DNA of 64,000 bases from Candidatus Rokuibacteriota bacterium (lineage in GTDB: Bacteria; Methylomirabilota; Methylomirabilia; Rokubacteriales; CSP1-6), in the NCBI GenBank assembly GCA_003221695.1, contig QHSX01000054.1, positions 1 to 64,000 on the forward strand, in the 5' to 3' direction. Each line of letters opens with the position of its first letter. Position 1 is the first letter of the stretch. Below, piece by piece: positions 28,648 through 44,236 of this stretch. Position numbers and translations under genes: made by a program. The notes beneath the pieces were generated by a model, which searched no databases, was not told the DNA's origin, and saw only the letters and a program-made list of their open reading frames with translations.

Positions 28648-30522
28648 ATGGCGTCCGGCGTCACCGCCAAGATCCTGCACGTCGATCTGAGCGCCCGGCA
28701 GACGCGCGTCGAAGAGATCCCCGAGGTCACGGTCCGCAAACACCTGGGCGGCGGCGCCCTGGCGTGCCATCTGCTGCTCCGCGACATGCCGGCCGGCGTC
28801 GAACCCCTCGGCCCCGACAACGTGCTGGTCTTCATGACCAGCGTCATCAACGGCCTGTCGCTCTCCGGCACCAACCGTTACACCGCCGCGGCCAAGTCAC
28901 CGCTGACAGGCGGCTACGGCGAGTCGGAGGCCGGCGGCTGGTGGGGCCCCGAGCTGCGCGCGGCGGGGTTCGATGGCGTGACGGTCCGCGGCCGGTCGGA
29001 GACGCCGACGTACCTCTGGATCAAGGACGGCCAGGTCGAGTTCCGGGACGCCCAGCCGTACTGGGGAAAGCTCTCGGGCGAGGTCCAGGATGGCCTCGAG
29101 GCCGAGCTCGGCGACAAGCGGATCCGCGTGCTCCAGACCGGGATCGCTGGCGAGCGGGGCGTGCGGTTCGCCGCGATCGTGAACCAGCTGAAGCACTTCC
29201 ACGGCCGGGGTGGCCTCGGCGCGGTGATGGGCGCGAAGAATCTCAAGGCGATCGCCGTCCGCGGCTCGAAGCCTCCCGCCGCGGCGGACAAGGAGAAGGC
29301 GAAGGGCCAGCTCGTCTGGTTCAAGGAGCACTACGACCGCGCCAAGGACCGCTTCCACCAGCTGGGCTCCGCGAGCGCGGTGCTGGCGCTCGAAGCGGGC
29401 GGCATCCTGCCCACGCGCAACTTCCGCGACGGCTCGTTCGAGGGGGCGCGCGCCATCAGCGGCCAGACGATGCGCGACACGATTCTGGTCAACCGTGGCA
29501 CGTGCTACGCCTGCGCCGTCGCGTGCAAGCGCGAGGTCGAGGTGAAGGAGCTCGGCGTGACGCCGAAGTACGGCGGGCCCGAGTACGAGACGCTCGCGGC
29601 CTCCGGATCGCTCTGCGGCGTGAGCGACATGAACGCCCTCGCGCTGATCAACCAGCTCTACGCGCAGTACGTGCTCGACTCGATCTCGACGGGCGCGGTC
29701 GTCGCCTTCGCGATGGAGTGCTACGAGCACGGGATCATCACCCCGTCGATGACGGGTGGCGTCGAGCTCACGTGGGGCAACGCCGACGCCGTGATCCAGC
29801 TCGTCCACCTCATCGGCCGCCGGGAGTCCATCGGCCGGCTCCTCGGTGAAGGCGTCAAGCGCGCCGCCCGCGAGCTCGGTCGGGGTGCCGAGCGATTCGC
29901 GCTGCACGTCAAGGGGCAGGAGCTGCCCATGCACGACCCGCGGGGCAAGAAGGGGCTCTCCCTCGCCTACGCGCTCTCGCCGACCGGCGCCGACCACATG
30001 GAGGCGCCCCACGACCCGCTCTACGCGGGCTTCCATCCCCAGGGCCACCCGCTCGGGGTGCTCGGCCTCATCGAGCCACTCGATCCGCTCTCGCTCGACG
30101 CCAAGAAGGTGCGTGCGTTCTTCGAGACGCAGAAGGTCTGGAGCGCTTACAACTCGGTCGGGATGTGCGACTTCGTCGGCGCGCCCCTCAACGGGCTCGA
30201 GCTCCAGCCGATGGTCGACTACATCAACGCGGTCACCGGCTGGAACATGAGCCTCTACGAGCTGATGAAGGTCGGCGAGCGCAACAACACGCTCGCGCGC
30301 CTGTTCAACTGTCGCGAGGGCTTCACGCCCGCGGACGACGTGCTGCCCCAGCGCCTCCACGAGGGCATCGGCAACGGCGCGCTGAAGGGCCAGAAGATCG
30401 ATCCGGACGAATTCTTCGCGGCGCGGCGAACGTACTACGAGATGGCGGGCTGGAGCCCCGAGACGGGCGAGCCGACCGCGACGAAGCTCGCAGAGCTCGG
30501 CCTGCACGACGTCATCAGGTAA
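28648..30522 (+). CDS. Aldehyde:ferredoxin oxidoreductase family protein
   Basis: The 624-residue protein spans the full AOR family length. The N-terminal domain has HLGGGALACHLL and SLSGTNRYTAAAKSPLTGGYGES, binding the tungstopterin. The 4Fe-4S ligands are GTCYACAVAC (Cx2Cx3C, about residues 285-293) with the distal Cys in SVGMCDF. AGGAGG precedes the ATG at 28648. Such enzymes oxidise aldehydes to acids with ferredoxin and need W (or Mo) and low potential. The gene stands alone, with no ferredoxin, MoaD or HycB-like partner next to it. Its substrate may be an aromatic or aliphatic aldehyde. Confidence 0.9.
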   Translation: MASGVTAKILHVDLSARQTRVEEIPEVTVRKHLGGGALACHLLLRDMPAGVEPLGPDNVLVFMTSVINGLSLSGTNRYTAAAKSPLTGGYGESEAGGWWGPELRAAGFDGVTVRGRSETPTYLWIKDGQVEFRDAQPYWGKLSGEVQDGLEAELGDKRIRVLQTGIAGERGVRFAAIVNQLKHFHGRGGLGAVMGAKNLKAIAVRGSKPPAAADKEKAKGQLVWFKEHYDRAKDRFHQLGSASAVLALEAGGILPTRNFRDGSFEGARAISGQTMRDTILVNRGTCYACAVACKREVEVKELGVTPKYGGPEYETLAASGSLCGVSDMNALALINQLYAQYVLDSISTGAVVAFAMECYEHGIITPSMTGGVELTWGNADAVIQLVHLIGRRESIGRLLGEGVKRAARELGRGAERFALHVKGQELPMHDPRGKKGLSLAYALSPTGADHMEAPHDPLYAGFHPQGHPLGVLGLIEPLDPLSLDAKKVRAFFETQKVWSAYNSVGMCDFVGAPLNGLELQPMVDYINAVTGWNMSLYELMKVGERNNTLARLFNCREGFTPADDVLPQRLHEGIGNGALKGQKIDPDEFFAARRTYYEMAGWSPETGEPTATKLAELGLHDVIR

Positions 30523-30710: not shown

Positions 30711-30790
30711 ACTTGTAGGTCATTCTCGGATTGCTTCCGCGACGGATTGCGGGCATGCTTCGTCGCGTTGTCGTGAATGGTCTTGCGATA

Positions 30791-32185
30791 ATGCGCCGCA
30801 CGAAAATGCGTCGGACGGACCCGGGAGGTATTACGTCGAACCAGATTCTCGGAATCTTCGGGACCGGCTACGCGGGGCTGGTGACCTCGGTGTGTTTCGC
30901 CGAGCTGGGCCACACGGTCACCGCGATCGACAAGGATCACGACGTCGTGGCGCGGCTGTCGGACGGGACGCCGACCATCCACGAGCCCGGCCTGCAAGAG
31001 TTGCTGACCGGGAATCTGGAATCCGGCAGGCTCAGGTTCACCACAAAGGCCGAGGACGCCGTGGTCGGGTCCGACATTGTGTTCCTCTGCGTGGGGACCC
31101 CGCCCCGCGCCGACGGACGCGCCGACCTCTGCCAGGTCGAGGAAGTCGCTCGCACGATCGCGCCGCTGCTGGACGGCTACAAACTGATCGTGGAGAAGAG
31201 TACGGTTCCTGCGCGTACCGCCTACTGGGTCGACTGGACGATCCGGCGCCTCGCCGGACCGAACCGCGAGTTCGACGTCGCCAGCAATCCGGAGTTCCTC
31301 CGCGAGGGCACGGCGGTGCAGGACTTCCTGAAGCCGGACCGGATCGTCATCGGCGCCGACACCGAGCGAGCCCGATCGCGGTTGCTCGACCTCTACCGGA
31401 AGGGCTTCCACTGCCCGATCGTCGCGACGAGCGTGACGACCGCCGAATTGATCAAGCAGACGGCGAACGCGTTTCTCGCGACCAAGATCTCGTTCATCAA
31501 TATGGTGTCCGACCTGTGCGAGGAGCTTGGCGTCGACGTGGCGACCGTCGCCCGGGGCGTCGGCCTCGATCCGAGGATCGGCAGTCACTTCCTCAACGCG
31601 GGCCTCGGCTTCGGGGGCTCCTGCCTGCCCAAAGACCTGAACGCGCTCATCACGGTGGCCGAGGACAACGGGGTCGACGTCGCGATGCTCAGAGAGGTCG
31701 AGCGCATTAACACCGCCCGTGTCGAGCGACTGCTCGCGAAAGTCGATCGGGCGTTGTGGGTGCTGCCGCAAAAGGTCATCGGCGTCCTGGGGGTGGCGTT
31801 CAAGCAGGACACGGATGACATTCGCGGGGCGCCGAGCCTCGGGATCATCCCGCGACTGCATAGCGCCGGAGCCATCGTGCGCGTCTACGACCCCGCCGCT
31901 GCACAGAATATCCAGAAGCTGTATCCGCCGAATGACCGCCTCGCCTATGTGGCGTCGGCTGTCGAGGCAGCTCGTGGGGCCGACGCGCTGGTCATTCTCA
32001 CCGACTGGGACGAGTTTCGCTCGCTGGACCTCGGCGGGATCCGGTCGCTCATGCGCACCCCGATCATCGTCGACGGGCGGAACCTGTTCGAGCCGGCGCG
32101 GATGCGGGCGGCCGGGTTCGAGTACCACAGCCTCGGCCGTGGGGAAGCGACCCTTCGCACGGTGCCGCGGCGGGTGCCCGTGTGA
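30791..32185 (+). CDS. ugd: UDP-glucose 6-dehydrogenase
   Basis: The protein has about 464 residues. NAD binding is by [18 protein letters not shown], the conserved [12 protein letters not shown] follows in the middle, and the catalytic Cys lies in [14 protein letters not shown]. It oxidises UDP-glucose to UDP-glucuronate with two NAD+. Starts at ATG 30791 or 30806 are possible, neither with a good ribosome binding site; TTG 30731 and ATG 30755 also stay open in frame. The next gene starts at a GTG overlapping its stop and would use its product. It is the first gene of a plus-strand locus that runs to at least 40.8 kb. Confidence 0.9.
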
Positions 32186-33168
32186 GCGCCCGCAGCGGGT
32201 CGCCCGCGACCGTGTTGATCACCGGAGCCGCCGGGTTTCTGGGCTCGCACCTCTGCGACCATTTTCTCGCTCAAGACTGGCACGTCGTTGGGGCCGACAA
32301 CCTGCTGACTGGGGCGGCCAGGAACCTGGCCCATCTCGCTGGCGACACCCGGTTCCGGTTCCTGCGGCAGGACGTCACGAAGCCGTTCGTCATCGATGAC
32401 CCCGTCGACCTCGTCCTGCACTTCGCCTGTCCTGCCAGCCCCAGAGACTACCTGCGGCATCCCATCCACACCCTCAAGGTCGACAGCGTTGGTGCGCTCC
32501 ACACGCTCGGGCTGGCGAAGGCTCACCACGCTCGCTATCTCCTGGCCTCCACCAGCGAGGTGTACGGCGATCCCCAGGTCCACCCGCAGCCCGAATCGTA
32601 CTGGGGCCACGTGAACCCGCTCGGTCCGCGTAGCGCGTACGACGAGGCCAAGCGCTTCGCCGAGGCCTTGACGATGGCGTACCACCGCTCGCACGGGCTC
32701 GATGCCCGCATCGTCAGGATCTTCAACACGTACGGCCCCCGCATGCGCGCTGGGGACGGTCGCGTGATCCCGCAGTTCATCACCCACGCACTGGCGGGGA
32801 TCCCCCTGCCCGTTCACGGCGACGGGCGGCAGACGCGGAGCTTCTGCTTCGTCGACGATTTGGTCGAGGGCATCTACCGGCTCGCCACCTACGACGGACT
32901 GGCGGGCGAGGTGTTCAACCTGGGCAACCCCGAAGAGATCACCTTGCTCGAGCTGGCCGAATCTGTCGCCTCGCTCGTCAAGACCCCCCTCGACCTCGTC
33001 CACCTGCCCCTGCCGCAGGACGATCCCGCGCGTCGGCGGCCGGACATTCGCAAGGCCCAGGCCGGACTGGGATGGAGTCCGACCGTGCCCCTCCGAGAGG
33101 GACTGCGGCGAACGATCGAGTGGTTCGCGAGCGTGGCGCCCGCGCAAGACGACCGCATCTCGGCATAG
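32182..33168 (+). CDS. UDP-glucuronate decarboxylase-like SDR epimerase
   Basis: The 328-residue extended SDR has the NAD motif [12 protein letters not shown] near residue 14, [27 protein letters not shown] and the catalytic YDEAK. The CPASP-x-Y-x3-PI-x-TLK stretch is typical of UXS enzymes that turn UDP-glucuronate into UDP-xylose. The adjacent dehydrogenase makes exactly that substrate and the GTG start overlaps its stop. Together they would supply UDP-xylose or a related pentose, also the route by which ArnA starts aminoarabinose. A different epimerase outcome cannot be excluded. Confidence 0.85.
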
Positions 33169-33178
33169 GGGGGCCGGC

Positions 33179-35752
33179 GTGTCAATCGCCCCTCCAGCCA
33201 ACGCGACCACGACCGATGGATTGCCCGCTCCGGCGATCACCCCGGACCTCGCCCGCGCGAGCGCGCCGACCCGCGTCCCTGAACTCGTCCGGCCGCGCGC
33301 GGGGGGCAAATTCCTTTTTGCCGGCGACGCGAAGCTCTACGTTCGCGGCGTGAGCTACGGGGCGTTTCGTCCCGACGCGAGCGGCCACGAGTACCACGAC
33401 CGGGACCTCATCGAGCGGGACTTCGCGCAGATGGCGGCGAACGGAATCAACACCGTCCGCATTCCGCACACGATGCCTCCCCGTTCCCTCCTCGACGCCG
33501 CCGGACGGCACGGCCTTCGGGTCATGGTGGGGCTGTCCGCCGAACAGTACCTTGGCTTCCTCATCGATCGGAAGAAGAGCGTCTCCGAGATCGAAGCGCT
33601 GGTCCGCGCGAAGGTCCGGGAGGTCGCCGGTCATCCGGCGCTCCTGTGCTACGCGTTGGGCAACGAAATCCCGGCCCCGATGGCGCGCTGGCTCGGCCGC
33701 CGAAGGATCGAGCGCTACCTCAAGCGGCTGTACCGCGCGGTCAAGGCGGAAGACCCTGACGGGCTCGTGACCTACGTAAACTACCCCACGACGGAGTACC
33801 TCCACCTTCCGTTCCTCGACCTCGTGTGCTTCAACGTCTACCTCGAGTCGCCGGAGCGGTTCGAGGCGTACCTCGCGCGCCTGCAGAATATCGCCGGGGA
33901 GCGGCCGCTCCTCATGAGTGAGCTCGGGCTCGACGGCCTGCGCAACGGCGACGGCGTCCAGGCGCGCTCCCTTGACTGGCAGGTGCGGACGGCGTTCGCG
34001 GCCGGATGCGCCGGCGTGGTCGTGTTCTCTTGGACCGACGAGTGGTACCGGCAGGGCCACGACGTCGAGGCCTGGGCCTTCGGCCTCACGCGCGCCGACC
34101 GGTCGCCGAAGCCCGCCCTCGACGCGGTCCGAGGGGCGTTCGCCGAGCTGCCGTTCCCGCCGAACCTGCCGTGGCCACGGATCTCGGTGGTCGTGTGCAC
34201 GTACAACGGCGCGCGCACCATCCGCGACTGTCTCGAGGGATTGCGGCGACTCGTCTACCCCGAGTACGAGGTCATCGTGGTGGACGACGGCTCCACCGAC
34301 GCGACCGCGGCCATCGCGCGCCAGTACGACTGCCGACTGATCCAGACCGAGAACCGCGGCCTGGCCAGCGCGCGCAACACGGGCCTCGGGGCGGCCACGG
34401 GCGAGATCGTCGCCTACATCGACGACGACGCCTACCCCGACCCGCACTGGCTCACCTATCTCGCGGCCACCTTTCTCTCCACGCCGCACGCCGCGGTGGG
34501 TGGACCGAACCTCGCCCCGCCGGGCGACGGACCGATCGCCGAGTGCATCGCGCGTGCGCCGGGCGGGCCCGTTCACGTCCTCCTGAGCGACCGTGAGGCG
34601 GAGCACCTCCCCGGCTGCAACATGGCGTTTCGCAAAGCCCGCCTCGAGGCGATCGGCGGGTTCGACCCGCAGTTCCGCACCGCCGGCGACGACGTGGATG
34701 TGTGCTGGCGGCTCGAGGAGCGAGGCTTCACACTGGGCTTCAGCGCCGCCGCCATGGTCTGGCACCATCGGCGGAACTCGGTGCGCACCTACTGGAAACA
34801 GCAGATCGGGTACGGCCGGGCGGAAGCCCTGCTCGAGCGGAAGTGGCCCAAGAAATACAACGGCTCGGGGCACGCCCGCTGGGCCGGCCGCATCTACGGC
34901 AACGGGCTGACACGGGCGCTCCGCTGGCGCCGGGCGCGCGTCTATCACGGCATCTGGGGCGTCGCGCCGTATCAGTCCCTCTACGAGCCTGCCCCGAGCC
35001 TTCTCGGTTCACTGCCCCAGATGCCGGAATGGTATCTGGCGGTCGCGATCCTGATGGCACTGTCGACGGTGAGCTTGATCTGGAGCCCTCTCAAGCTCCT
35101 GCTGCCGCTGCTCCTCGGCTTCGTCTTACCGCCGCTGGCGCAGGCGTCCCTCAGCGCGGCCCGTGCTTCCTTCAACGACGCGCCGCTTCACGGTGCGGCC
35201 CGGCTCAAACGGCGGTTGCTGACGGCCGCGCTCCACCTGCTCCAGCCGCTGGCGCGCCTGCGTGGCCGGCTGCAATACGGCCTGGCGCCCTGGCGGCGGG
35301 GGTCGCCGGGGCTCGCGGCGCCCTGGCCGCGGACTTTCGCCCTCTGGAGCGAGCGCTGGCGCGACCCCGACGAGAGACTCCGGCGGATCGAAGCGGACCT
35401 CAGGGCCGCCGGCGCCGCGGTTCGGTGCGGGGGCGACTATGACCGCTGGGACCTCGAGATCAGTGGCGGGCCGTTCGGCTCTGCCAGGCTGCTCATGGCC
35501 GTCGAGGATCACGGCGCGGGTACGCAGCTCCTCCGCCTCCGCTGGTGGCCGCGCGGCTCTCGTGGCGGGGTCGCCCTCACCGCCCTCTTCGCGGCCCTCG
35601 CGGGCGGCGCCGCCGCGGCTGGGGCGTGGGCCGCCGGAACGATCCTCGCGGCAGTCACCCTCGCGCTCGGTCTCTGCGTCGTCCTCGAGTGTGCCGGCGC
35701 CGCCGCTCTCATCGCCCGGACCGTCAGGCGGCTAGGGACAGGAGGCACCTGA
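33179..35752 (+). CDS. Glycoside hydrolase domain fused to GT2 glycosyltransferase
   Basis: The 857-residue protein joins two enzymes. Residues about 45-320 are a GH2/GH5-like TIM barrel with GNE (161-163) at the acid/base position and SELG with E248 at the nucleophile position. Residues about 333-570 are a GT2 domain with VVVCTYNG (337-344), DDGS (369-372) and DDDAYPDP with its DxD-like metal site at 415-421. A hydrophobic segment near 620-660 and another at about 797-845 would anchor the C-terminus. No signal peptide is seen, so both catalytic domains would be cytoplasmic. Coupling a hydrolase or transglycosylase with a polymerase suggests chain-length control or carrier release. GGG at 33170 precedes the GTG start. 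Confidence 0.85.
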   Translation: MSIAPPANATTTDGLPAPAITPDLARASAPTRVPELVRPRAGGKFLFAGDAKLYVRGVSYGAFRPDASGHEYHDRDLIERDFAQMAANGINTVRIPHTMPPRSLLDAAGRHGLRVMVGLSAEQYLGFLIDRKKSVSEIEALVRAKVREVAGHPALLCYALGNEIPAPMARWLGRRRIERYLKRLYRAVKAEDPDGLVTYVNYPTTEYLHLPFLDLVCFNVYLESPERFEAYLARLQNIAGERPLLMSELGLDGLRNGDGVQARSLDWQVRTAFAAGCAGVVVFSWTDEWYRQGHDVEAWAFGLTRADRSPKPALDAVRGAFAELPFPPNLPWPRISVVVCTYNGARTIRDCLEGLRRLVYPEYEVIVVDDGSTDATAAIARQYDCRLIQTENRGLASARNTGLGAATGEIVAYIDDDAYPDPHWLTYLAATFLSTPHAAVGGPNLAPPGDGPIAECIARAPGGPVHVLLSDREAEHLPGCNMAFRKARLEAIGGFDPQFRTAGDDVDVCWRLEERGFTLGFSAAAMVWHHRRNSVRTYWKQQIGYGRAEALLERKWPKKYNGSGHARWAGRIYGNGLTRALRWRRARVYHGIWGVAPYQSLYEPAPSLLGSLPQMPEWYLAVAILMALSTVSLIWSPLKLLLPLLLGFVLPPLAQASLSAARASFNDAPLHGAARLKRRLLTAALHLLQPLARLRGRLQYGLAPWRRGSPGLAAPWPRTFALWSERWRDPDERLRRIEADLRAAGAAVRCGGDYDRWDLEISGGPFGSARLLMAVEDHGAGTQLLRLRWWPRGSRGGVALTALFAALAGGAAAAGAWAAGTILAAVTLALGLCVVLECAGAAALIARTVRRLGTGGT

Positions 35753-35757
35753 GGATC

Positions 35758-38591
<2,834 letters not shown>

Positions 38592-38595
<4 letters not shown>

Positions 38596-39746
38596 GCCTG
38601 ACCGTCTGCCTTGCGCCGGCCAACACAATGGCGTACCCGAATGGCGGCGGCCATCTCTGGGTCTATCTCCAGTGGGCCCTTGCGCTGCGAGCCCTGGGCT
38701 GCCCGGTGATCTGGCTCGAGGTACTCGATCCGGGAAAGCCCCTGGAGGCGACGAAGGCCAACGTCGCGGCCTTGCGGGATCGTCTGGATCGATATGGCCT
38801 GGCCGAGTCCCTCGCGCTCTGTTCGCCGAACGGCGCGCCGCCGCCACAAGACCTGGCTGCGCGGGTCCTCGATCTCGAGGCGGCCGCGCAGGCCGACCTG
38901 CTCATCAATCTCTCGCACTTGCTTTCGGCCGCGGTTGTCCGGCGGTTCCGGCGCGCGGCGCTGGTCGACACGGACCCGGGGCTCCTGCAGATCTGGATGA
39001 CCCGAGGCGACGTGCGGCTGGCGCCGCATGACATCTATTTCACCATCGGCGAGACCGTCGGGACCCCAGCGGCCCGCTTCCCCCACTGTGGCCTCCGCTG
39101 GCACTACACGCCACCGCCGGTCTTCCTACCTGAGTGGCCACCGGCCCCGGCGGACTCAACCGCGCCCTACACGACGGTTACGCACTGGTGGGGAAGCAGA
39201 TTCGAGTTCCAGGGGCGGACCATTAATGAGGAGAAGCACGTCTCCTTCCTGGACTACAAGGAGCTGCCGTCACGGACATCTGCCGGGCTTGAGCTCGCGG
39301 TGTGCCTCGGGGAGCACGACGAGCAGTGCCGGCGGCTGATGGAGCCTGCGGGCTGGAGGCTTCGGGAGGCGTGGGATGTGAGCTCAACCCCAGAGGCTTA
39401 CCGCGCCTACATCCAGCGCTCGCGAGGCGAATTCAGCTGCGCGAAGCCCGCGTATGTGACCCTTCAGACCTCATGGCTGAGCGACCGCACCCTTTGCTAC
39501 TTGGCGAGCGGCAAGCCCGCCATCGTTCAGCATACTGGTCCCAGCCGGATCCTGCCAGACGCGGAAGGCCTGTTCCGGTTCCGCAGCCTCGACGAAGCCG
39601 CCCGCGCGCTCGCCGCCGCCGAGGCCGACTACGAGCGGCACTGCCGGCTGGCTCGCGCGCTGGCGGAGGAGCACTTCGACGCGCGCCGGGTCGTCGGGCG
39701 GGTCCTGGAGCGGGCGCTCGAGCGTGGGGCGAGGTCGGCCGCATGA
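38592..39746 (+). CDS. Putative glycosyltransferase (GT-B like)
   Basis: The 384-residue protein starts at an ATG overlapping the fusion's stop (ATGA). The N-terminal region GGGHLWVYLQWALALRALGC and the C-terminal TLCYLASGKPAIVQHTGPS followed by GLFRFRSLDEAARAL resemble GT-B glycosyltransferases, where the second stretch binds the nucleotide sugar. It is not a standard GT1 or GT4 by eye. No membrane segment. It is bracketed by the two APH-containing genes and coupled to both by overlaps, so all three likely act on the same product. Confidence 0.65.
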
Positions 39747-40810
39747 ACGAGGTGATCGAGCTGCGCAGAGGCCTTCGGAGCGCGCTGGAGGCGACCGGCG
39801 AGCCGGGATGGGCCGAGCTGTGCGAGTCCTTGGAGGCGCTCCTGGACGGCGCCGACCCGGCCGACCGCGGCGCCGGGCTCCCGGTCGTCAGCGTCCGGCT
39901 TCTCAAAGCACGAGTTTATCGGCTCGAGATCGAGACCCGCGGCCCGTGGCGCACCGCCGTGATCAAACGGCTGGAGCCGACCCGGGCAGAACGTAACCGG
40001 CAGCTCGCGGAGCGCTGGCTGCCCGCCCTCGGGCTGGGCGATCGGTGCGCGCGGCTGCTGGCCGTAGCGGCCGATCGCCGCGGCGAGAGCGTTTGGCATA
40101 TCTATGAAGACCTCGGCGACGACACGCTCTCGGCGCGGCCCGCTCTCGAGCGGGTGGACGCGGCAGTCGACCTCGTCGCCGAGCTGCACACGCGCGCCGC
40201 CCGCCACCCCGTGCTGCCTGACGTGCGCCGATACGGTGGCGACCTCGGAATGCCGTACTTCGTCTCGAACGTGGGTGACGCCATCGCGGCGCTCGAAGCG
40301 CTCGCGGCATCCGGGATCGAGACCCCGCCGGAGCACGCGGGGCTCCCAGACCGTCTGCGCAAGCGGCTGATCGGGCTCCTGGCCGAGGTACCCCGGCGGG
40401 CCCGGGCCTTTGAAGACGCCGCCGGGCCGGATACGCTCCTCCACGGCGACCTCTGGACGACCAACATCTTCGTGAGCGGAAGCGCCGAGGGGCCGCGCGC
40501 GCGGCTCGTCGACTGGGACCATGTGGGTGTCGGGCCGTTCAGCTACGATCTCTCCACGTTTCTTTTCCGGTTCCCGGCGGCCCTGCGGCCGCGGATTCTG
40601 GAGCGCTACCGGAATGCCGTGTCGCGCGCGGGCTGGCGGCTGGCCTCGCCGCCGAAGCTCGATTTCCTCTTCGACACGGCCGAGAGAGCGCGCTACGCCA
40701 ACCGCGTCATCTGGCCGGTGCTGGCGCTGCTCCAGGACAACGCCGAGTGGGGATTCCCCGAGCTCGCCGAAGTCGAGCGATGGTACCAAGCCCTCGAGGG
40801 GCTCCCGTGA
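39743..40810 (+). CDS. APH-type phosphotransferase
   Basis: The 355-residue protein, coupled by ATGA to the putative glycosyltransferase, is a full aminoglycoside/choline-kinase-like enzyme. The Lys region is WRTAVIKRLEPTRAERN, the catalytic Brenner motif is LLHGDLWTTNIF, and VDWDHVGVGPFSYDLSTFLF holds the metal Asp. The locus thus encodes two kinases of this superfamily, one fused to an exporter. Possible substrates are a sugar, a choline-like head group or a peptide; nothing in the sequence decides. It is not evidence of antibiotic resistance. Confidence 0.8.
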   Translation: MNEVIELRRGLRSALEATGEPGWAELCESLEALLDGADPADRGAGLPVVSVRLLKARVYRLEIETRGPWRTAVIKRLEPTRAERNRQLAERWLPALGLGDRCARLLAVAADRRGESVWHIYEDLGDDTLSARPALERVDAAVDLVAELHTRAARHPVLPDVRRYGGDLGMPYFVSNVGDAIAALEALAASGIETPPEHAGLPDRLRKRLIGLLAEVPRRARAFEDAAGPDTLLHGDLWTTNIFVSGSAEGPRARLVDWDHVGVGPFSYDLSTFLFRFPAALRPRILERYRNAVSRAGWRLASPPKLDFLFDTAERARYANRVIWPVLALLQDNAEWGFPELAEVERWYQALEGLP

Positions 40811-40835
40811 CGACCTCCGTGCCGGAGGACACTAC

Positions 40836-42269
40836 ATGATCACTATGATGAGCCGCGCCCTATCGCTTCCCCTGGTCGTCGTCGCGGTCGGAGCCGGGGT
40901 CTGGGGCTACCTCTACGCGCAAGACGAGGGGGGCGCCCCAAAGTACCGGACCGAGCGGGCGGAGCGTGGACCGATCGTCGCCGCAGTCTCGGCGACGGGC
41001 AACCTCAACGCCGTCACGACGGTGCAGGTCGGCACCCAGGTCTCGGGCCAGATCAAGGGGCTCTACGCCGATTTCAACTCCGTCGTGCGTAAGGGCCAGG
41101 TGATCGCCAGGATCGACCCCGCGACCTTCGAGGCGAAGGTCAAACAGGCTCGCGCCGACGTGGATTCTGCCAAGGCGAACGTCCTCAACCAAGAGGCCCA
41201 GGTCGAGCGCGCGCGGGCGGAGGTGGGGAACGCGCGGTCGGCGCTGGCCGAGGGCAAGGCGCAGACGGCGCGCGCGCAGGTGGCGGTCGCCGACACCAAC
41301 CGTGACCTCGGCCGGAGGGCAGAGCTTTTCCAGCGCACGCTGATTCCCAAGAGCGAATACGACACGGCCCAGGCCGCCTATGACGCCGCCGTCGCTATGC
41401 TCGACGCTGCGCGCGCCAAGGAGGAGTCGCTCGCCGGCGCCATCGGGTCCGCCCAAGCACAGCTCCGCGTCGCCGAAGCGATGTTGCAGGCCGCCCGCGC
41501 GCAGGTGGAGCAGAAGGAAGCGGCGCTGTACCAGGCGAGCCTCGATCTCGAGTACACCACGATCCACGCGCCGGTCGACGGCGTGGTGGTGTCGAGGGCG
41601 GTGGATGTCGGGCAAACGGTCGCGGCGAGTCTGGCGGCGCCGACCCTCTTCACCATCGCTCGAGACCTGACGAAAATGCAGGTCGAGGTGAGCGTCGACG
41701 AGGCTGACATCGGGCGTGTCCGGGTCGACGGGCCCGCGAAGTTCACGGTGGACGCCTTTCCGGGCGAGACCTTCAACGGCCGGGTCGTGCAGGTCCGCAA
41801 GGCCGCTCAGATCGTGCAGAGCGTCGTCACCTACACCGTGATCGTCGCTGTCGACAATCCCGACGGGCATCTCCTGCCGGGGATGACCGCGAATGTGAAG
41901 CTGATCGTCGCCGAGAAGCCGAGCGTGCTCAAGGTCGCGAACGCAGCCTTGCGGTTCCGGCCGCCCGGAGGAGAGACCAGGCCCAAGGAAGGCAAGTCCA
42001 AGGACGACAAGTCCAGGGAACGCAAGTCCAAGTCGGAGCGCTCCACGGGCGACGACGGGCGGAGTGGCGTTGGCGGGCGGGTGTGGATTCGGGGCCCGGA
42101 CGGCGAGCCCCAGCCCGTGGCGCTCAGGCTCGGCCTCACCGACGGCAGCGCGACCGAGGTCCTCGGAGGCGACCTCAACGTGGGGCAAGAAGTCATCGTC
42201 GGCCATGGTGGTAGCGGTAGCGGGAAGAAAGCGCGCAAGGGCGGGAGCGCGCCCAGCATCGGGCGCTGA
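40836..42269 (+). CDS. macA: MacA/HlyD-type periplasmic adaptor
   Basis: The 477-residue protein starts at ATG 40836 with GGAGG seven bases upstream. An N-terminal helix anchors it, followed by the barrel-lipoyl halves, with VSATGNLNAVTTVQVGTQVSGQI and YTTIHAPVDGVVVSRAVDVGQTV around a long coiled-coil hairpin (about residues 95-235, heptad Ala-rich). The C-terminal portion has an unusual Lys/Ser/Glu-rich linker (KSKDDKSRERKSKSER). It would bridge the MacB permease and an outer membrane channel; no TolC gene is here. It is first of a three-gene efflux set. Confidence 0.88.
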   Translation: MITMMSRALSLPLVVVAVGAGVWGYLYAQDEGGAPKYRTERAERGPIVAAVSATGNLNAVTTVQVGTQVSGQIKGLYADFNSVVRKGQVIARIDPATFEAKVKQARADVDSAKANVLNQEAQVERARAEVGNARSALAEGKAQTARAQVAVADTNRDLGRRAELFQRTLIPKSEYDTAQAAYDAAVAMLDAARAKEESLAGAIGSAQAQLRVAEAMLQAARAQVEQKEAALYQASLDLEYTTIHAPVDGVVVSRAVDVGQTVAASLAAPTLFTIARDLTKMQVEVSVDEADIGRVRVDGPAKFTVDAFPGETFNGRVVQVRKAAQIVQSVVTYTVIVAVDNPDGHLLPGMTANVKLIVAEKPSVLKVANAALRFRPPGGETRPKEGKSKDDKSRERKSKSERSTGDDGRSGVGGRVWIRGPDGEPQPVALRLGLTDGSATEVLGGDLNVGQEVIVGHGGSGSGKKARKGGSAPSIGR

Positions 42270-42272
42270 GCC

Positions 42273-43010
42273 ATGGCGCTGATCGTCACCGAGGGGCTCA
42301 CGAAGGACTATCCACTCGGCCCACACACGGTTCATGCGCTCCGTGGCCTGACGGTCGAGGTCGAGCGCGGCGAGTTCGTGGCGGTGATGGGCCCCTCCGG
42401 CTCGGGGAAGTCCACCTTCATGAACCTTCTCGGCTGTCTCGACTCGCCCACGGCCGGCCGGTACGTCCTGGACGGCGAGGATGTCGCCGGCCTCTCGCGG
42501 TCGGAGCTCGCACGGATCCGCAACCGCAAGATCGGGTTCGTCTTCCAGACATACAATCTCCTGCCCCGGACGAGCGCCCTCGAAAACGTCGAGCTCCCGC
42601 TGATCTACGCGGGGCTGGCGGCCGGAGCGCGGCGCACGCGCGCGCGCGAGCGGCTGGCCGCGGTCGGGCTCGAGGATCGCGCCAACCATCATCCGAGCCA
42701 GCTCTCGGGGGGGCAGCAGCAGCGTGTCGCCATCGCACGCGCGCTCGTCAACGACCCCGCAGTACTGCTGGCCGACGAGCCGACGGGCAACCTCGACACC
42801 CGGACCAGCGTCGAGATCCTCGTCCTCTTGCAGCAGCTGAACCGCCAGGGCATCACGATCGTCCTCATCACTCACGAGCCGGATATCGCCGAGTATGCGA
42901 GTCGGGTGCTGACGTTTCGCGACGGCCGCCTGCTGCGCGACGAGCCGGTCCGGTCGCCGCGGGACGCCGCCCGAGCGCGGGCGCTTCTCGGGGAGGAGGC
43001 GGTGGCGTGA
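42273..43010 (+). CDS. macB: MacB-type ABC transporter ATP-binding protein
   Basis: This 245-residue ATPase has Walker [10 protein letters not shown] (40-48), Q-loop VFQTYNLLP, signature [16 protein letters not shown], Walker [12 protein letters not shown] and switch His in ITHEPDIA. It is the separate ATPase half of what in E. coli is one MacB chain. It lies 3 bases after the adaptor gene and overlaps the permease by GTGA. The substrates of such systems range from macrolides to lipopeptides and heme precursors; the nearby polysaccharide locus may supply the actual substrate. Confidence 0.9.
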
Positions 43011-44236
43011 ACGTCTGGGAGAGCGCCCGGAGCGCCCTCCGCGCGCTGCGCGTGAACAAGCTCCGCAGCGCATTGACGATGCTGGGCATCATCATCGGCG
43101 TGGGCGCCGTGATCGCCATGGTGGGCGTGGGCACGGGGGCGCAGGCGAGCGTGACCGAGCGGATCGAGAGCCTCGGGACCAATCTCATCATCGCCACGTC
43201 CGGCAGCGTGACCTCGAGTGGCGCCCGCCTCGGCCAGGGCACCCAGTACACGCTCACCGAAGACGACGCGGTTGCCATCGCGCGCGAGATCCAGGTCGTG
43301 CAGGTGGCGGCGCCCTCCGCGAAGGGCAAGGGGCAGGTCGTCTTCGGCAACCTCAACTGGTCCACGGACATCTACGGCGTGACCGAGGATTATCTGGAGG
43401 CCCGCGACTGGCCGCTCGACTCCGGTCGACCGCTCGGGCCCGAGGACGTCGACGGCGCCACGAAGGTCGCGATCCTCGGGCAGACCACCGCCCTGAATCT
43501 CTTCGGTGACGCCGATCCGCTCGGCCAGATCATCCGGATCCAGAAGGTCCCGTTCACCGTGGTCGGGCTGCTGGACGCGAAGGGGGAGAGCTCCTACGGT
43601 TGGGATCAGGACGACGTCATTCTGATTCCGCTCTCGACGGCGAAGAAGAAGGTGCTCGGGACCCAAGGCAACCCTCGTTCGGTCAGGAAAATCGAGATCA
43701 AGATTTGGCCCGGTGAGGACCTGGCCGAGGCCGAGGCGCAGATCCGGACGCTTCTCAGACAGCGCCACCGGCTCCAGCCCGGCCAGGACGACGACTTCAA
43801 GCTGGGCAACCTGACGGACGTGCTCGAGACAAAGGAGCAGGCCGCGCAGGTCATGACCTACCTCCTGGCGGCCATCGCGTCGGTGTCGCTCCTGGTGGGC
43901 GGCATCGGGATCATGAATATCATGCTCGTGTCGGTCACCGAGCGGACGCGCGAGATCGGGCTCCGGATGGCGGTGGGGGCCGAGGGCCGAGACATCCTCA
44001 TGCAGTTCCTCGTCGAGGCCGTCACGCTCTCGGTGATCGGCGGCCTGATCGGTATCGCGGCCGGTCTCACCGGCTCGCGTGCGATCAGCTACTTCGCCGA
44101 GTGGCGGACGCTGGTCGCGCCGGATACGATCGTGCTGGCCTTCGGCTTCGCGGCCGCCGTCGGCATCTTCTTCGGGTTCTATCCGGCGAGGAAGGCGGCC
44201 CGCCTCGACCCGATCGAGGCGCTCCGTTATGAGTAG
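43007..44236 (+). CDS. macB: MacB-type ABC transporter permease
   Basis: The 409-residue permease has the first helix in [21 protein letters not shown] (residues 23-43), a periplasmic MacB_PCD domain (about 60-280) and three C-terminal helices with [23 protein letters not shown], the ATPase contact. GTG start overlaps the ATPase stop. With the two preceding genes it completes a tripartite type VII ABC system. Its last 8 bases overlap the start of the phosphoesterase gene. Confidence 0.9.

Follow-up and report, generated by a model that had tools for sequence, protein, structure and literature searches.

The product of the Agrobacterium glucan synthase Cgs leaves via a type I ABC exporter. In the parts of the published accounts drawn on here, Cgs is a protein of ~300 kDa (PMC11842490) that elongates, trims and cyclises within one chain (PMC10901819, PMC11842490), and all of its soluble domains are cytoplasmic (PMC10901819). 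A second comparable system is the pseudomonad GH17-GT2 protein Orphan/NdvB, for which the portion of the description used here gives a periplasmic (modelled) GH17 domain and a proposed cyclic glucan product (PMC10237404). Among the hydrolases, GH157 acts on linear β-1,3-glucan and not on pustulan, a GH157 enzyme is predicted to lie at the cell surface, and GH158 is cited as a β-1,3-glucan enzyme, all according to the available sections of a single report (PMC10229575).

The protein described here, a GH-GT2 fusion, is encoded in a window of 64,000 nucleotides (the whole stretch of DNA that was analysed) from a Candidatus Rokuibacteriota bacterium. Like Cgs, it joins a glycosyltransferase and a glycoside hydrolase-type domain in one membrane protein and goes with an ABC exporter, whose gene here adjoins that of the fusion; unlike Cgs, in which a cyclase and GH94 stand behind GT84, it carries a GH157-like barrel in front of its GT2 domain. 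It has 857 amino acids against the ~300 kDa given for Cgs in the part of that account cited above, and the neighbouring ABC protein, at 278.8 bits, does not reach the 585.4 bits that the ChvA model requires. The pseudomonad system likewise unites an N-terminal TIM-barrel GH domain and a subsequent GT2 domain in a single membrane protein, and there the GH domain is proposed to shape the product; however, in the portion of its description used here a transmembrane region joins the two domains, whereas the hydrophobic segments of the fusion begin only at residue 616, and no GH17 family matches the fusion in Pfam at E up to 0.1, Glyco_hydro_2_C being found instead. The fusion protein thus belongs to neither the Cgs nor the pseudomonad group, and at most works like them. 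No description of this fusion was found in a search of titles and abstract beginnings of the open-access literature; subscription journals and preprints lay mostly outside that search, and a description may exist there.

We propose, with moderate confidence, that the fusion works as a cytosolic glycan synthase which is anchored in the membrane and carries its own processing enzyme, a retaining glycoside hydrolase that would act on the product of the GT2 domain before ABC export.

Architecture and membrane topology of the fusion protein

The preliminary description placed a glycoside hydrolase barrel and a GT2 domain in a single chain, and Pfam and AlphaFold both confirm this for exactly the reading frame at 33179-35752 (Table 1). 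The Pfam families found in its 857 residues are Glyco_hydro_2_C and glycosyltransferase families only: the Glyco_hydro_2_C TIM barrel matches residues 53-261 (E 5.8e-12, 45.8 bits, cut-off 21) and is followed by Glycos_transf_2 (PF00535) at residues 336-447 (E 6.2e-33, 114.5 bits, cut-off 23.3), with several GT2 models spanning residues 333-541. The AlphaFold models of the barrel alone (pLDDT 91.5, pTM 0.90) and of the whole chain built with 57 homologues (pLDDT 85.8, pTM 0.83) are confident. The whole-chain model sets the barrel at residues ~40-323 and the GT-A domain at residues 335 to ~555, and it shows residues 1-33 as disordered (pLDDT <50).

Table 1. Features of the fusion gene and of the genes around it (positions in the window)
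Feature	Position	Strand	Basis or remark
UDP-glucose 6-dehydrogenase-like nucleotide-sugar dehydrogenase (supplies UDP-GlcA)	30731..32185	+	TIGR03026, 435.7 bits, cut-off 189.8
NAD-dependent epimerase/dehydratase (SDR)	32182..33168	+	Pfam; ends 10 bp before fusion gene
GH-GT2 fusion gene	33179..35752	+	GTG start, 857 aa
GH domain, clan GH-A TIM barrel, residues ~37-323	33287..34147	+	Pfam, profile, fold
E163 codon, expected acid/base Glu (GNE, fourth strand)	33665..33667	+	Glu in 101/101 loci
E248 codon, expected nucleophile (SELG, seventh strand)	33920..33922	+	Glu in 101/101 loci
GT2 domain, residues ~333-560	34175..34858	+	Pfam, AlphaFold, conserved Asp motifs
First hydrophobic helical hairpin, residues 616-661	35024..35161	+	AlphaFold, hydropathy
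Small alpha/beta domain between hairpins, residues ~718-793	35330..35557	+	AlphaFold
Second hydrophobic helical hairpin, residues 795-854	35561..35740	+	AlphaFold, hydropathy
MsbA-type ABC exporter with C-terminal APH-like kinase domain, one chain	35758..38595	+	5 bp after fusion gene
Putative GT-B glycosyltransferase	38592..39746	+	No Pfam match; 4 bp overlap with ABC gene
Second APH-like kinase	39749..40810 (start approximate)	+	Pfam

The hydrophobic part of the protein consists of two helical hairpins in the AlphaFold model (helices 616-631/636-661 and 795-813/817-854), and averaged hydropathy rises at 621-654, 801-808 and 820-832 only. The fusion protein has no signal peptide, none of the 57 full-length homologues has a hydrophobic 12-residue stretch before the barrel, and there is no hydrophobic segment between the GH and GT2 domains; the missing signal peptide and the position of the membrane segments after both domains, which had been noticed from the single sequence, are therefore borne out. 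Since both catalytic domains precede the first membrane segment, the simplest reading of the sequence is that the GH and GT2 domains are both cytosolic. A cytosolic GH domain in a glucan synthase would not be unprecedented, given what the cited part of the Cgs description says of that protein (PMC10901819). A periplasmic GH domain in the style of the pseudomonad GH17-GT2 protein was considered for the fusion and rejected for want of a hydrophobic segment ahead of the barrel or separating it from GT2. If these placements are right, the combination of glycosyltransferase and glycoside hydrolase in one membrane protein exists in several builds: the GH domain lies inside in the present protein, and the pseudomonad model puts it outside.

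The glycosyltransferase domain and the linked export genes

The GT2 domain has the GT-A fold, the PF00535 match and the Asp motifs of its family, and D370, D415-x-D417 and D504-D505-V-D507 are invariant in 57/57 homologues. The processive GT2 synthases of the cellulose, chitin and hyaluronan type carry a QxxRW motif. This motif is absent from the GT2 domain of the fusion, where the homologue alignment shows K-Q-Q-x-x-Y-G at residues 540-546, so that Q541 and Q542 precede Y545-G546 in its place. The best NCBIfam match of the GT2 part is the mycofactocin glycosyltransferase MftF (TIGR03965), yet it reaches 157.1 bits against a cut-off of 280, and to our knowledge MftF has no GH domain; in the PDB, chondroitin synthase and an archaeal mannosyltransferase are among the closest sequences, the latter also near by fold (Foldseek). 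Because QxxRW is missing and the MftF match is far below its cut-off, elongation of a long chain stays putative, and short oligosaccharides are an equally possible product. The “polymerase” of the preliminary description is thus a putative one.

The first five genes of the cluster form a tight row, with gaps or overlaps of ≤10 bp, and a scan for sigma-70 promoters and terminators gave nothing above chance. Among the NCBIfam matches listed for the SDR protein (32182..33168), none reaches the cut-off that would give its subtype. The ABC protein (scanned against NCBIfam from 35755) scores highest with MsbA_lipidA (429.6 bits, cut-off 602), followed by lower values for the ChvA/NdvA exporter models (341 against a cut-off of 733 for NF010178 and 278.8 against 585.4 for TIGR01192); as every one of these scores is below its cut-off, they are not diagnostic of the exporter subtype. 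For the putative GT-B protein no PDB sequence resembled the product of 38592-39746 (best E 0.37), and a relative of it at another locus (L107:14318) has a Glyco_trans_1_2 match that is below cut-off.

The fusion and its link to export are conserved well beyond the window. In 79 of 81 loci (80 fetched plus the window) the GH and GT2 parts are open in one frame; the two exceptions are a locus cut by the contig end before GT2 (L073) and one with a frame break at the junction (L093). Among the 61 loci that could be tested for a neighbour (the window and every other locus with 2.5 kb or more of downstream sequence), an ABC exporter follows the fusion directly in 50 and within 6 kb in 55, an outer-membrane barrel gene of the TonB-receptor type lying between fusion and exporter at L067; no downstream exporter match was found in the other six (L066, L077, L078, L081, L090 and L110). 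GT-B genes are present downstream in 39/46 loci with at least 7 kb of sequence. The dehydrogenase and SDR genes stand upstream of the fusion in few loci (11/52 and 15/52, respectively), so they appear optional and do not imply the donor sugar. A second group from the same class, with barrels 43-45% identical, repeats the arrangement: in all seven loci examined GH-GT2 is followed by a same-strand ABC exporter, and GT-B genes occur in six of the seven within the stretch fetched.

Distance matrices calculated for 57 loci correlate between barrel and ABC exporter (r 0.70) and between barrel and GT2 (r 0.76), values that none of 2000 permutations reached; for pairs with >30% barrel divergence the correlations fall to 0.41 and 0.42. 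Such correlation is expected of genes that travel together, but shared descent alone could yield it and it is not proof of contact between the proteins.

The ABC scores and the GT2 motifs also bear on a different reading, in which GT2 and GT-B enzymes would build a lipid-linked oligosaccharide that the MsbA-type ABC protein flips, with the GH domain as a quality-control hydrolase that edits the glycolipid. It agrees with the MsbA_lipidA score being higher than those of the glucan exporters, with a GT2 domain that is not of the QxxRW type, and with the content of some clusters, which hold several GT-B genes together with pyruvyl transferase-like, aminotransferase and acyltransferase genes. Against it, the ABC scores on which the comparison turns are the non-diagnostic ones given above, and we regard glycolipid editing as possible but unlikely.

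Catalytic residues, family and proposed activity of the barrel

Both of the Glu residues that the preliminary description had put forward as catalytic are conserved: E163 and E248 are Glu in 57/57 full-length homologues and in 101/101 loci, a set that includes some contigs twice because they were fetched from two collections. The lack of conservation that the preliminary description had named as its refutation was therefore not observed. Over the same loci Y221 is kept in all 101 and N162 in 100. W285 is conserved in 94 and replaced by F or Y in the other seven; R94 is conserved in 96, K replaces it in one, one has a gap there and three do not cover it. All six residues are invariant in the 57-row alignment. 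In the profile alignment E163 falls on the Glu of the N-E pair of LaGH157 (N-E is also matched in GH2), and E248 falls on LaGH157 E224, which is Ala in entry 9g4n. The confident barrel, with N162-E163 at strand 4 and E248 at strand 7, has the features of a retaining enzyme of clan GH-A, so the domain is predicted to be retaining, with E163 the expected acid/base and E248 the expected nucleophile.

Glycoside hydrolase domains that have degenerated and kept a binding role do exist, and the barrel might likewise have lost its cutting activity and serve as a carbohydrate-binding scaffold or chain-length ruler. The variation of R94 and W285 in a few loci would fit this; however, in a domain freed from catalysis the loss of essential residues would be expected in some lineage, and both Glu and Y221 persist in every locus and N162 in all but one. 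We therefore consider a purely binding role improbable.

The family of the barrel, which had been left to a profile search, was settled only in part. A single-sequence search of PDB sequences gives GH158 first (E 6.3e-6), and a search with a 47-row profile gives GH157 first (9fz9, E 4.3e-18, covering profile positions 6-256 of 297), followed by a GH2 galacturonidase (7e-13), a GH2 glucuronidase (1.8e-11) and GH158 (5.3e-10). Fold comparison also has GH157 at the top (Z 31.8, rmsd 2.8, 296 aligned, 17% identity), but by the criterion of the tool itself the GH2 uronidases (Z 30.9 and lower) are tied with it. Foldseek gives GH157 a TM-score on the query of 0.82, against 0.72-0.79 for the uronidases among the matches listed, and in the whole-chain Foldseek search a GH5_18 structure ranks first. 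The nearest solved family is thus GH157 by profile, with GH157 and the GH2 uronidases tied by fold.

GH2 β-glucuronidases bind the uronate through an N-x-K (N-K-K) motif. The fusion shares the barrel fold and the Pfam name Glyco_hydro_2_C with the GH2 β-glucuronidases and galacturonidases, and a UDP-glucose dehydrogenase gene is nearby, so that a GH2 β-glucuronidase was a natural candidate. It was rejected on two grounds: in the profile alignment the N-K-K of 5c70 and 6u7i falls on W299-A-F301, whose W299 and F301 are present in 57/57 homologues, and the N-terminal β-sandwich domains of GH2 enzymes are absent, the barrel starting at ~residue 40, with no other domain family matched ahead of GT2 and residues 1-33 disordered, which leaves no room for them. 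Despite that rejection, the β-glucuronidases still tie with GH157 by fold.

With the GH157 and GH158 endo-β-1,3-glucanases the barrel shares its fold and both expected catalytic Glu, and because of this resemblance, its sole basis, our best guess from sequence for the substrate of the GH domain is a β-linked gluco-type chain, perhaps β-1,3; the tie with the uronidases and the first rank of GH5_18 make it a weak guess. The identity to LaGH157 is only ~17%, and the barrel here belongs to an apparently biosynthetic fusion whereas the cited GH157 and GH158 enzymes are degradative. The solved structures among the GH157, GH158 and GH2 relatives belong to enzymes that are degradative by name, which would suit a barrel that degrades an imported or recycled β-glycoside while GT2 works elsewhere, the two activities being joined for location alone, but we judge this improbable, since the fusion is kept in 79/81 loci with its link to exporter and glycosyltransferases and the genes inspected nearby are mainly biosynthetic (though the TonB-receptor-type barrel gene at L067 and GH38-like genes at L043 are present).

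The occurrence of the same arrangement in many bacteria with both Glu unchanged argues for the synthase with a built-in processing enzyme, a protein that probably builds a sugar chain and then trims or reshapes it before export. Its action could be as follows: at the inner membrane face, GT2 would use nucleotide donors to add sugars to a chain or acceptor, and the retaining barrel would attack the growing or finished chain so that a glycosyl-enzyme forms at E248 while E163 serves as acid/base. Passage of the cut piece to water would trim the chain to length or release it, and passage to another sugar hydroxyl would branch the chain or close it into a ring. Export of the finished oligosaccharide or glycolipid would then fall to the neighbouring ABC protein. 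At 857 residues, such a protein would be a compact test case for how cells fix a glycan's length or shape ahead of export.

The more specific suggestion that the GH157-like barrel is a cytosolic transglycosylase, closing rings or making branches on the GT2 product before ABC export in a separate and widely shared synthase design, is a tentative one to which we give a low probability. Were it true, the fusion would do by other means what Cgs-NdvA does, and would point to a family of exported, possibly cyclic, β-glucans across many uncultured soil lineages.

Distribution of the fusion across genomes

The source genome has one copy of the fusion; ten other matches there cover the GT2 part only, and no GT2-only paralogue sharing the C-terminal tail of the fusion was found in that genome. 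Within the same class the fusion occurs in 16 of 95 genomes (source genome included) and in 10 of 33 genera, and a phylum-level search took in the same 95 genomes; it is absent from three other genomes of the source's genus. When 84,980 species genomes were scanned, 111 barrel relatives were found, of which 80 were listed. Their contigs are labelled Rokuibacteriota, Gemmatimonadetes, Chloroflexi, Acidobacteria, several proteobacterial classes, Nitrospirae, Chlorobiaceae, Planctomycetota and others. The majority are metagenome bins, and some labels (including one archaeal) are probably wrong. Relatives also occur in two named isolates: Desulfoferrobacter suflitae DRH4, whose locus is L078, and Pleomorphovibrio marinus SW125, whose locus is L080. 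This patchy distribution suggests transfer between lineages.

If the proposed synthase is real, the cluster is the mark of a pathway for an exported glycan in many poorly studied bacteria of soil and water, among them at least two named isolates; the product of this pathway is without a name in the open-access literature searched.

Querying 72,556 plasmid records with the complete protein by tblastn gave matches in 995; as none of these covers 80% of the query, a plasmid-borne relative was rejected. Each of the 40 matches listed out of the 995 includes GT2 residues, and those among the 40 that reach furthest into the barrel span residues 218-529 (H35) and 258-534 (H36).

Two forms of the barrel and the exporter–kinase chain

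Near its third strand (residues 92–132 in the 57-row alignment of full-length fusion homologues), the glycoside hydrolase barrel occurs in two forms, exemplified by the window and locus L107: R-I-P-H-T with S-A-E-Q-Y in 31 of the 57 rows, and R-T/V-Y-T with P-W-E-Q-H in the other 26. Among the 61 loci tested (window counted), 22 encode an ABC exporter and an APH-like kinase domain as a single chain, and 11 others have a separate APH-like gene close to the exporter. Among the aligned rows, this single-chain form was found only with the R-I-P-H-T form of the barrel (17/31 versus 0/26 in the R-T/V-Y-T form), and the split between barrel forms, with ABC-APH in one form only, may be the mark of two products.

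Downstream protein family and accessory genes

Members of a family of ~380–410 aa, several of them often in tandem, probably represent GT-B glycosyltransferases that are as yet unassigned; most members tested gave no Pfam match, and a single one gave a weak GT-B match. The accessory genes vary among clusters, which suggests that decoration of the glycan differs between lineages.

Positions of exporter, putative glycosyltransferase and accessory genes
Feature	Position	Occurrence
ABC exporter + APH-like kinase domain, single chain	window 35758-38595	
~380–410 aa family, member	window 38592-39746	
~380–410 aa family, relatives (examples)	L080:14245-15465; L080:16354-17502	
YdjC-like deacetylase	L099:16466-17152	some clusters
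RimK-type ATP-grasp	L043:15045-16073	some clusters
Hexapeptide acyltransferases + DegT aminotransferase	L107:15490-17835	some clusters
Pyruvyl transferase-like protein	L080:15471-16358	some clusters

Second GH-GT2 group and flanking genes

A second GH-GT2 group within the same class, 43–45% identical, was found at loci L111–L117, and both groups co-occur in some genomes (G048, G049, G050 and G054).

Immediately upstream of the operon, window 28648-30522 holds, by eye, a candidate aldehyde ferredoxin oxidoreductase-like gene. Downstream, the genes at 40521-44236 look, again by eye, like a candidate MacA-type adaptor with ABC permease partners; these three clusters also lie behind the fusion operon in further Rokuibacteriota loci (L031, L036 and L037).
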